Assembly: GCA_022562455.1 (NCBI GenBank)
Contig: JADFPG010000007.1
Span: 1 to 39,036, forward strand
Reading direction: 5' to 3'
DNA length: 39,036 nt
Source: Fidelibacterota bacterium
GTDB taxonomy: Bacteria > Fidelibacterota > Marinisomatia > Marinisomatales > SCKK01
Shown: one piece after another, positions 19,441 to 30,581 of the stretch
Layout of the letters: each line of letters begins with the position of its first letter
Numbering within the stretch: the first letter of the stretch is position 1
Program-made: the position numbers and the translations under genes
Notes under the pieces: model-generated
What the model saw: the letters and a program-made list of their open reading frames with translations, nothing else
What the model was told of the DNA's origin: nothing
The model's database searches: none

Positions 19441-19902
19441 TGAACTGATTGTATTACCTCTGTTATGGGTAGGTGAATCAAGAACCAAGATCCAGGTCTG
19501 CCCTGCCTGACGGCCCGTCCGCCGGTGGGCGGGCAGGGAATATTCGGATCTTCTGAAATTTAGTTGGAAACAATTGGTTGGTTTCTTCACGTAATGTATT
19601 AACACGTAAAAGGTTAGCGTATAGTGACCTTTGAAACTAATTGCGAATAAATAAGAAGTATTAAATATGTGTTCATTTCCTTTCTATCGAGTTGGTAAAC
19701 ACATTACCTAAGCCTTTATAAATAGTGACATAATGAAATCTTTTGATTCATATTTGCTTGATCTTTGTGGAGTGAAAACTGTGCAACTAAATTTCAGAAC
19801 ACCCATATATTCATACGATATCCATCTACGGATTATCCACTAATAAAGGGGTTATATGGGAAAGAATTTGGTCAATTAAGTTTTCCAAAACCTATGTGTT
19901 GA
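19441..19902 (+). other. Intergenic region between hutI and comF, with large palindrome
   Basis: About 460 bases with no convincing gene. The only strong structure is the nested palindrome at 19487-19552, described separately. The remainder is AT-rich and featureless to my reading, and the comF start has no clear ribosome site. Confidence 0.5.
19487..19552 (+). repeat. GC-rich palindrome nested in an outer AAGATCC/GGATCTT repeat
   Basis: An outer inverted repeat (AAGATCC at 19487-19493, GGATCTT at 19546-19552) encloses a GC-rich hairpin at 19501-19538 whose ends are CCCTGCC and GGCAGGG and whose core pairs GCCCGTCC with GGGCGGGC. The base composition is far richer in GC than its surroundings. 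The left arm CCTGCCTGAC is the exact reverse complement of the arm at 26309-26318. Confidence 0.85.
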
Positions 19903-23133: not shown

Positions 23134-23217
23134 GCCGAAGTGGTGGAACTGGTAGACACGCTGTCTTGAGGGGGCAGTGAGAGTAATCTTGTGCGGGTTC
23201 GAGTCCCGCCTTCGGCA
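23134..23217 (+). tRNA. tRNA-Leu (anticodon GAG)
   Basis: A complete class II tRNA. The acceptor GCCGAAG pairs with CTTCGGC, with discriminator A at 23217. The anticodon stem CTGTC/GGCAG encloses TTGAGGG, with GAG at 23168-23170. There is a long variable arm, and the T-arm is GCGGG-TTCGAGT-CCCGC. CCA is not encoded. It begins 5 bases after secG. Confidence 0.97.
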
Positions 23218-23236
23218 CAATGGGTGGTCATCATTA

Positions 23237-23244
23237 AAAATACG
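23237..23244 (+). repeat. Left 8-bp target-site duplication
   Basis: AAAATACG directly abuts the left terminal inverted repeat of the 201-bp element and is identical to 23446-23453. Confidence 0.85.
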
Positions 23245-23445
23245 GTAACTCTTTAGGCGCAGGCGAAGGTAAATAGAATGAAGAATGAAGAAATAAATCT
23301 TAAATTTTCGATTTTAAGGAGATGAGCTTTCGTTAGCTAACGGACAGAAATGCCGGTATGGCAACTAAATCTGATCCTTATCCCGAATCTTCTGGGCTTA
23401 GCCTTTTATTAAAGCCTCGTTCCGCAAAATAGGCTAAAGAGTTAC
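23245..23445 (+). mobile_element. MITE-like 201-bp element with perfect 12-bp terminal inverted repeats
   Basis: The ends are GTAACTCTTTAG (23245-23256) and CTAAAGAGTTAC (23434-23445), a perfect 12-bp inverted repeat, flanked by AAAATACG on both sides. No gene is inside. It contains further palindromes, such as CGTTAGCTAACG near 23330-23342 and TCCCGAATCTTCTGGG at 23381-23396. An 8-bp duplication and GTAA-starting ends resemble the IS66 family, but ISL3, IS256 and IS1595 also make 8-bp duplications. It sits between tRNA-Leu and the TPR gene, ending 28 bases before that gene's start. Confidence 0.85.
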
Positions 23446-23453
23446 AAAATACG
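23446..23453 (+). repeat. Right 8-bp target-site duplication
   Basis: AAAATACG directly follows the right terminal inverted repeat and matches 23237-23244 in all eight bases. Confidence 0.85.
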
Positions 23454-23473: not shown

Positions 23474-24790
23474 ATGGAATTGAAGAAAATCGCATTCATG
23501 CAATCACTTCTTGTCACAATTGTTCTGTGTCAAACACCTTATGAATTACTTGATCAGGGGAAAATACTCTTAGAACAAGGTGATTTGAATGGTGCAGAAG
23601 AATCAGTAAAATCAGCGTTAAAGATTGATAATGGTTTGGCAGAGGGTCACTTTATTTTGAGTCAAGTATATTTAACTCGGAATGATTTAAATGCATGTCG
23701 TGAGCATATAAATCGTGCCATTGAAATTGATCAATATAATGAGGACTATCGTGCAGATTTTGATAAGGTAAATGATGTGGCAAAGATGATGGCTACTGGT
23801 TTAAAAAGTCTCGAAACGGGTGACCATGAAAAAGCTATTGTGACTTTTGAACTGGTGATTGAAAAACTTCCTCTTTATGCAGCTGCGCCTATATATTATA
23901 TCGGAGTTGCAGTGGGTCGAGAGGGCGATGTACGCGAAGCTGCCAATCAATTTAGGAAATCTTTAAAGATCAATCCTGGTTATGAACGGGCAAGCTCAGC
24001 GCTGATTAATTTTACTAACCGGACATTCAATGAGGGGAACCAATATGTTCGGAGAGGAGATTATGATGGCGCAATTGAAAGTTATCAACTTGTACTTGAA
24101 TTGGATCCCCTTTACTATAAAGCATATTTTCAATTGGGAGTAGTAAACACAAAGTTGGGAGATTATGCAGCAGCAATAGATAATTATAGAAAATCTGTGA
24201 ATATTGAACCCAATTTTTCGAAAGGATGGTTTGCATTAGGACTTGGATTGCAAAAAAATGATCAGCTGGAAGAAGGTTTGGAAGCCTTTAAAAAGGCAAC
24301 GGAAGTAGACCCCACCTATGCTAAAGCCCATTCGCAAATGGGAACCATTTATGTAATACTGGAAGATTTTAATTCAGCAGAGAATGCTTTTAATATGGCA
24401 ATTCAAGTTGATCCAAGTTATGCGAGACCCTATCAAAACTTGGGGAATATTTATGTGGAACATGAACGATTTGATGAAGCAATTAACACACTATTGACTG
24501 CTACGGCTTTGGATGATAAATCTCCTAAATCCTGGTACTTCCTATCTCGAGCATATAACGCCACAGATCAATGTGACGAAGCGAGAGAGGCAGCTTTGGG
24601 AGCATTGAGGACGAAGAAAAATTATGCTCCTGCACAGTTTGAATTAGGGACTGCGGAAATATGCTTAGGGAATAAAACCGCTGCATTACAAGCTTTCGAA
24701 AAAGCAAGAAAAGATCGTTCTTGGAGAAAATCTGCTGAATATGAGATTGACAAAATAAAAAATCCTCATAAATATGAAAATGTAAAATAA
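23474..24790 (+). CDS. Secreted or periplasmic TPR-repeat protein
   Basis: The 438-residue product starts with a short hydrophobic signal (AFMQSLLVTIVLCQT) and is otherwise made of about ten tetratricopeptide repeats spanning most of the protein, each with the A/G-x-x-x-Y/F and P-x-x-x pattern (for example GDYDGAIESYQLVLELDP and EDFNSAENAFNMAIQVDP). TPRs form a superhelix that binds other proteins; no catalytic domain is present, so I assign no specific role. AGGGGGA shortly upstream serves as ribosome site. The MITE-like element ends 28 bases before it, so its original promoter may have been displaced. Confidence 0.88.
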   Translation: MELKKIAFMQSLLVTIVLCQTPYELLDQGKILLEQGDLNGAEESVKSALKIDNGLAEGHFILSQVYLTRNDLNACREHINRAIEIDQYNEDYRADFDKVNDVAKMMATGLKSLETGDHEKAIVTFELVIEKLPLYAAAPIYYIGVAVGREGDVREAANQFRKSLKINPGYERASSALINFTNRTFNEGNQYVRRGDYDGAIESYQLVLELDPLYYKAYFQLGVVNTKLGDYAAAIDNYRKSVNIEPNFSKGWFALGLGLQKNDQLEEGLEAFKKATEVDPTYAKAHSQMGTIYVILEDFNSAENAFNMAIQVDPSYARPYQNLGNIYVEHERFDEAINTLLTATALDDKSPKSWYFLSRAYNATDQCDEAREAALGALRTKKNYAPAQFELGTAEICLGNKTAALQAFEKARKDRSWRKSAEYEIDKIKNPHKYENVK

Positions 24791-30179: not shown

Positions 30180-30270
30180 GGAGAGATGGCCGAGCTGGCT
30201 GAAGGCGCTCGCCTGCTAAGCGAGTAAGGGGTTAAAAGCTCCTTCGAGGGTTCGAATCCCTCTCTCTCCG
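30180..30270 (+). tRNA. tRNA-Ser (anticodon GCU)
   Basis: A complete class II tRNA. Acceptor GGAGAGA (30180-30186) pairs with TCTCTCC (30263-30269), with discriminator G at 30270. The anticodon stem CTCGC/GCGAG encloses CTGCTAA with GCT at 30215-30217. A long variable arm precedes the T-arm GAGGG-TTCGAAT-CCCTC (30246-30262). CCA is not encoded. The first GIY-YIG gene starts 2 bases after it. Confidence 0.97.
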
Positions 30271-30272
30271 CA

Positions 30273-30548
30273 GTGAAAAAAGGTTGGAACGTTTATGTAA
30301 TTCAAAGTCAACGCGGTAAATTTCGATATAAAGGAATGAGCCGAAATCCATCAGACCGTCTTGAGAGTCACAATGCTGGAAAAGTAAGAGTTACTAAGCA
30401 TTATCGGCCATTTGAAATTATTTACATGGAGTATGTAGGTAAAAGGAGTGAAGCGAGAAAAAGGGAACGCTATTTGAAATCTGCTGCGGGGAGGAAATTT
30501 ATTGAAAAGCAGATTGAGGAAAGGAATGAGGGTTCCCAGCCCGACTGA
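30273..30548 (+). CDS. Small GIY-YIG nuclease abutting tRNA-Ser(GCU)
   Basis: A 91-residue single-domain GIY-YIG protein. The first motif is VYVI (7-10), the second YKG (19-21), the catalytic Arg29 is in SDRLESHN and the catalytic Glu60 in KRSEARKRERYLKS, so the active site looks intact. GTG 30273 is 2 bases after the tRNA, and the only ribosome site would lie inside the tRNA 3' end, so translation efficiency is doubtful. The C-terminus NEGSQPD is read from a duplicated T-arm and the palindrome that interrupts it; without the palindrome the frame would continue EGSNPSLSA. Family members act in DNA processing or as homing nucleases; the role here is unknown. Confidence 0.8.
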   Translation: MKKGWNVYVIQSQRGKFRYKGMSRNPSDRLESHNAGKVRVTKHYRPFEIIYMEYVGKRSEARKRERYLKSAAGRKFIEKQIEERNEGSQPD

Positions 30549-30581
30549 CGTCGGTCAGGCGGGGAATCCCTCTCTCTCCGC
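30528..30581 (+). pseudogene. Second copy of tRNA-Ser 3' end, interrupted in the T-loop
   Basis: GAGGGTTC (30528-30535) and GAATCCCTCTCTCTCCGC (30564-30581) together reproduce the T-arm and acceptor strand of the upstream tRNA-Ser(GCU) (30246-30271) exactly. They are split by 28 bases at 30536-30563. The tRNA 5' portion is absent from this copy. Confidence 0.85.
30536..30563 (+). repeat. 28-bp palindrome inserted in the duplicated T-loop
   Basis: CCAGCCCGAC (30536-30545) and GTCAGGCGGG (30554-30563) are imperfect inverted repeats, with 8 of 10 positions complementary, around TGACGTCG. It has the CCNGCCYGAC arm shared with the intergenic elements at 19502 and 26289. It interrupts the tRNA copy between TTC and GAAT with no visible target duplication. 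Confidence 0.82.

Follow-up and report, generated by a model that had tools for sequence, protein, structure and literature searches.

A miniature element with IS66-type ends beside a tRNA-Leu gene of a Fidelibacterota bacterium, and its apparent origin from a PF05635 gene cassette

The window (the whole stretch of DNA that we analyzed, 39,036 nucleotides) is contig C156 of G000, a 2.89-Mb draft genome. At its positions 23245-23445 lies a 201-bp segment bounded by perfect 12-bp inverted repeats, which starts 26 bp 3' of the tRNA-Leu(GAG) gene (23134-23218) and ends 28 bp before a TPR gene (ORF 23474-24790; TPR confirmed by Pfam). Upstream are genes that we take, from reading their translations, to be pgk, tpiA and secG. 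A sequence-only reading had called the segment a miniature inverted-repeat transposable element (MITE) of 201 bp with exact 12-bp inverted ends and the 8-mer AAAATACG on both sides, and in this it was correct to the base. The features are as follows.

23237..23244, + strand: target duplication, left copy AAAATACG, also at both ends of the copy in the sister genome G001
23245..23445, + strand: MITE of 201 bp without a transposase gene, recognized from its ends, its duplication and the orthologous G001 copy
23245..23256, + strand: left terminal inverted repeat GTAACTCTTTAG (family consensus GTAACTATTCAGSC), from direct sequence comparison and the family motif
23331..23365, + strand: apparent 5' remnant of a PF05635 (23S rRNA IVP) gene, the palindrome CGTTAGCTAACG followed by ACAGAAATGCCGGTATGGCAAC (TEMPVWQ), from alignment to the elements L011 and L012
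23413..23435, + strand: putative subterminal hairpin-capable block AGCCTCGTTCCGCAAAATAGGCT, read from sequences and alignments
23434..23445, - strand: right terminal inverted repeat GTAACTCTTTAG (forward strand CTAAAGAGTTAC), a 12/12 inverted match that carries the family motif
23446..23453, + strand: target duplication, right copy AAAATACG, also at both ends of the G001 copy

A 12-bp inverted pair is by itself not significant in the window (6 observed versus 4.1 expected); the significance lies in its conjunction with a direct repeat. A perfect 12-bp inverted pair (span, 50-1000) with a perfect 8-bp direct repeat occurs a single time in the window, and the looser combination of an 8-bp inverted repeat with an 8-bp repeat was found at a mean of 0.025 per shuffle in 200 order-1 Markov shuffles. 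MITEs stay below about 600 bp, have inverted termini and a target-site duplication and lack a transposase, and the segment agrees on every point: 201 bp, ends matching at 12 of 12 bases, and AAAATACG twice, retained in G001.

Two other segments of the window have a mobile appearance. One, at 19538-19812, is MITE-like, about 275 bp long, with long inverted ends (core TTCTGAAATTTAGTTG) that are unrelated to those of the 201-bp element; a second copy, 80% identical, lies at G000:C136:94085-94344, and G001 has a copy at the same site. In the other, at 30254-30581, the final 18 bp of tRNA-Ser(GCT) (GAATCCCTCTCTCTCCGC) recur 310 bp downstream, and the two copies enclose a gene (30273-30548) for a GIY-YIG endonuclease (PF01541, E=3.8e-14). 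G001 shares this arrangement, at the corresponding site. A small nuclease element seems to have entered the tRNA gene here and restored its 3' end.

G001, the single same-genus genome that we compared, also carries the window insertion: an orthologous 208-bp copy of about 90% identity (G001:C59:24908-25115) occupies the same site, flanked at both ends by the same 8-mer, AAAATACG. The insertion is therefore old, shared by both sister species and predating their split. In the history that we propose, it would have landed between the tRNA-Leu and TPR genes while the two species were still one, and diverged slightly afterwards.

The element belongs to a family with common ends. The end motif GTAACTVTTYAGNC has 28 exact matches in G000 and 18 in G001, against an expectation of about 0.5 per genome (our own arithmetic, with bases taken as equally frequent). 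The stricter GTAACTATTCAGSCT has 15 copies in G000 and 10 in G001, and the reversed pattern has 3 matches in all 244 genomes. In the rest of the phylum, the end motif is nearly absent. Family members are 107-706 bp long, and many of them have a block resembling AGCCTCGTTCCGCAAAATAGGCT at the same end. An 8-mer with at most two mismatches flanks 15 of 41 distinct inverted end pairs (60-720 bp), 7 of them perfectly, where about 0.2 would be expected; independent insertions are somewhat fewer than listed, as the 41 pairs count the window insertion in both genomes and take in other sites common to the two species. Because a search with the whole 201 bp gave no match in 59 order-level relatives outside the genus, the family was traced via its ends. 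Within the order, one element with a perfect 8-bp duplication was found in each of G003 (ATTAAAAG) and G113 (CTAAATTT), and G023 has one with a decayed duplication. The further copies for which the sequence-only reading proposed a search are present; the full-length IS that it also proposed to look for was found in neither G000 nor G001; transposons with the same ends, of the IS66 family, were found in other phyla. A 1438-bp end pair in G001:C23 was considered as a full transposon and rejected, since it holds only a guaB-like copy. At this locus (L024; G001:C23:40205-43218), part of a guaB-like (IMP dehydrogenase) gene seems to be duplicated, and MITE-type ends lie next to the copies.

To look for empty sites, we searched G000 with the joined flanks of G001 elements. 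Elements of 412, 270 and 107 bp are absent from G000, which has exactly one GATTTTAT, AATTTAGT and TTCTGTTA at the respective joins; a fourth G001 element, of 513 bp and with a decayed duplication, has an uninterrupted counterpart there. Clean empty sites were thus seen for three other members, the window site being occupied in both species. Movement of family members after the two species had separated explains this most simply. Numerous relatives with the same ends, the 8-bp target duplications and the empty sites support the interpretation of the window segment as a MITE.

To judge from the alignments, the interior of the window element is not IS66 DNA. Larger family members share with it a left block (GGCTAAGGCGCAGGCGAAGG) and a right block, and between these blocks L012, L234 and L238 hold a PF05635 gene (MGYKDFTEMPVWQQSFELL...), broken in all three; pieces of such a gene are found in L011, L018, L019 and L081. 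The window copy retains a 35-bp stub of the 5' part, partly reading EMPVWQ like its relatives. This stub is 94% identical to the L011 element over 35 bp, and L011 in turn is 97% identical over 34 bp to the L012 element, at the start of its PF05635 match. At a related site, the step by which a cassette shrinks to a miniature through internal deletion can be seen directly: L110 (G001, 706 bp; decayed ends ATAACTATTCA/TTAACTATTCA, decayed duplication matching at 5/8) contains a different PF05635 gene with an intact frame, and L057, at the same site in G000, lacks 333 bp of that gene, with a short overlap at the junction. The window element is apparently what remains of a longer cassette, one with a PF05635 (IVP/S23, four-helix-bundle) gene, after shortening by internal deletion.

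Several observations on these genes stand beside this. In both genomes, decaying PF05635 genes repeatedly have about 8-15 bp broken up or substituted by very short palindromes (TCCCGAAGCTTCGGGA, TCCGYYAGCTRRCGGA and variants); such sites lie at 23331-23342 of the window and in the L012, L234, L238 and L011 elements. L234 (G003:C163), 440 bp long, holds a broken PF05635 gene and is flanked by a perfect ATTAAAAG duplication; the genes on either side resemble bamA and ompH/skp. Aligned blocks of the G003, G023 and G001 cassettes are 76-89% alike, which may reflect old inheritance, transfer between families or mis-binned contigs. PF05635 is abundant, with 16 matches in G000, 27 in G001 and at least one gene (E <= 1e-10) in 116 of 244 phylum genomes. 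Nearly all of the PF05635 genes checked in G000 and G001, and all 30 examined in the phylum at large, have no ends of this type around them, and among intact genes flanking inverted repeats were found for L110 only. We therefore rejected a general rule that IVP genes ride IS66 ends and regard the association as occasional. It is quite possible, if somewhat short of an even chance, that IS66-type ends captured PF05635 genes at least twice in the order, giving cassettes without a transposase that spread through several families (G001/G000, G003 and G023).

Which transposase would have moved the element is suggested by its ends. These have the GTAA start and ISBst12-type continuation of IS66 elements, with the matching 8-bp target duplication; the sequence-only reading had named the GTAA ends and the 8-bp duplication as fitting IS66. 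A published relative, ISDge4 of the ISBst12 group, has ends GTGACTACTCAGCA/GTAACTGCTCAGCA and an 8-bp repeat, and its transposition has been observed (PMC12898284). In complete plasmids from several phyla, we found seven IS66 insertions with GTAAC..CAG/AAG-type ends and exact 8-bp duplications, the transposase being checked by PF03050. They include elements of Paraburkholderia (GTAACTATTCAGCG at both ends, GCCGCCGC twice), Anoxybacillus (GTAACTATTCAGCC/GTATCCATTCAGCC, CTAACGAC twice) and Deinococcus (ends GTAACTGCTCAGCA, GCCGCTTG twice), as well as two Chlorohelix insertions with ends GTAACAATTCAGCC/GTAACAGTTCAGAC and different perfect duplications; transposons of Octadecabacter and Nostoc likewise combine such ends, or very similar ones, with perfect 8-bp duplications. 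IS66 genes also lie between matching ends in a Thalassocella MAG (L140; GTAACTATTCAGCACAATCCAA, 22 bp at both ends) and an Anaerolineales MAG (L142; GTAACTACTAAGCC). No 8-bp duplication accompanies L140, L142 and L144 (in drafts) or L151 (on a plasmid), four IS66 elements whose ends match or resemble these. The sharing of ends and exact duplications with single-ORF ISBst12-type transposons supports the IS66 assignment, and the IS66 elements examined resemble the window element over their first 12-14 bases only.

In a 20-mer scan of the genome collection, most matches were chance ones inside genes, and true MITEs with 8-bp duplications were found in Thalassocella and Burkholderiales MAGs. The Thalassocella blandensis MAG has five 168-bp MITEs (loci L119, L132, L135 and L138) with GTAACTATTCAG-type ends, four of them with perfect 8-bp duplications, and also holds the IS66 element of the same ends, L140.

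No DDE_Tnp_IS66 transposase gene was found in the element, in G000 or in G001, so we file the element as an IS66-type MITE rather than an IS66 element. Within its phylum, just 2 of 245 genomes had a match to the IS66 transposase type, one of them a C-terminal remnant between GTAACTATTCAGCG ends. Repeated IS are often missing from draft assemblies. As neither genome of the genus has the gene, we infer the acting transposase, which may or may not still be available; the assignment is supported by the ends and the duplication length, not by a co-resident enzyme.

Taken together, these data make it very probable that the element is a MITE moved in trans by an ISBst12-type (single-ORF) IS66-family transposase and descended from a PF05635 cassette by internal deletion. 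The transposase would bind the GTAACTMTTYAG ends and join them to the target with an 8-bp stagger, leaving the 8-bp duplication. That some other DDE transposase family mobilized it, sharing GTAACTATTCAG-like ends and the 8-bp stagger by chance, is improbable: several transposase families make 8-bp duplications and the IS66 gene was not found in G000 or G001, but the end type and exact duplications recur in the seven plasmid IS66 insertions, and no other transposase lay between such ends in the loci read. Less probable still is a selfish IVP-type element, PF05635 remnant included, with its own RNA- or protein-based route and merely IS-like ends; larger members do hold the gene, and intervening sequences of 23S rRNA, which likewise combine complementary ends with an S23 ORF, have been proposed to be mobile (PMC4990558), but several members have no recognizable PF05635 sequence, most PF05635 genes checked are not between these ends, and in other phyla the interiors of same-end MITEs with 8-bp duplications are unrelated.

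The IS66-type MITE can be set against known systems. Like MITEs in general, it is short, belongs to a multicopy family and has inverted ends, target duplications, empty sites among its siblings and no transposase; its interior differs in coming, as far as visible, from a gene cassette and not from a parent IS. The GTAACT..TCAG-type ends and 8-bp target duplication are those of the ISBst12 group (ISDge4), whereas the transposase gene is missing and just the first 12-14 bases are common. Mobile insertion cassettes (named in PMC3129680) hold a passenger gene between IS-type ends without a transposase, as do the relatives L012, L234, L238 and L110; here the cargo is a PF05635 gene, which in the window copy is deleted to a stub. 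With 23S rRNA intervening sequences carrying an S23 ORF, such as that of Coxiella (PMC4990558), the family shares the PF05635 cargo and complementary ends, but it lies outside the rRNA gene and is flanked by DDE-type 8-bp duplications.

The suggestion that the element supplies a promoter or terminator was not borne out, as no promoter-like or terminator-like site was detected inside it; with the TPR frame intact downstream, we saw no sign that the insertion changed expression. An Rfam search gave the tRNA only, and the RNA fold (z = -2.4) probably reflects mostly the pairing of the inverted ends and is not evidence of a functional RNA. The open-access literature held nothing directly matching an IS66-derived MITE or PF05635 cargo in IS66-type elements, an absence that is weak evidence.

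The mechanism is ordinary transposition; only the PF05635 cargo of the larger relatives is unusual. The element is a well-supported example of the path from cassette through internal deletion to MITE in an almost uncultured phylum, and it makes IS66-type ends a possible vehicle for some of the PF05635 genes, a family for which mobility has been an open question. If the repeated capture proposed above is true, it would be one concrete DDE-type route of dispersal for scattered, otherwise unexplained PF05635 genes, with the window element as a shrunken descendant.
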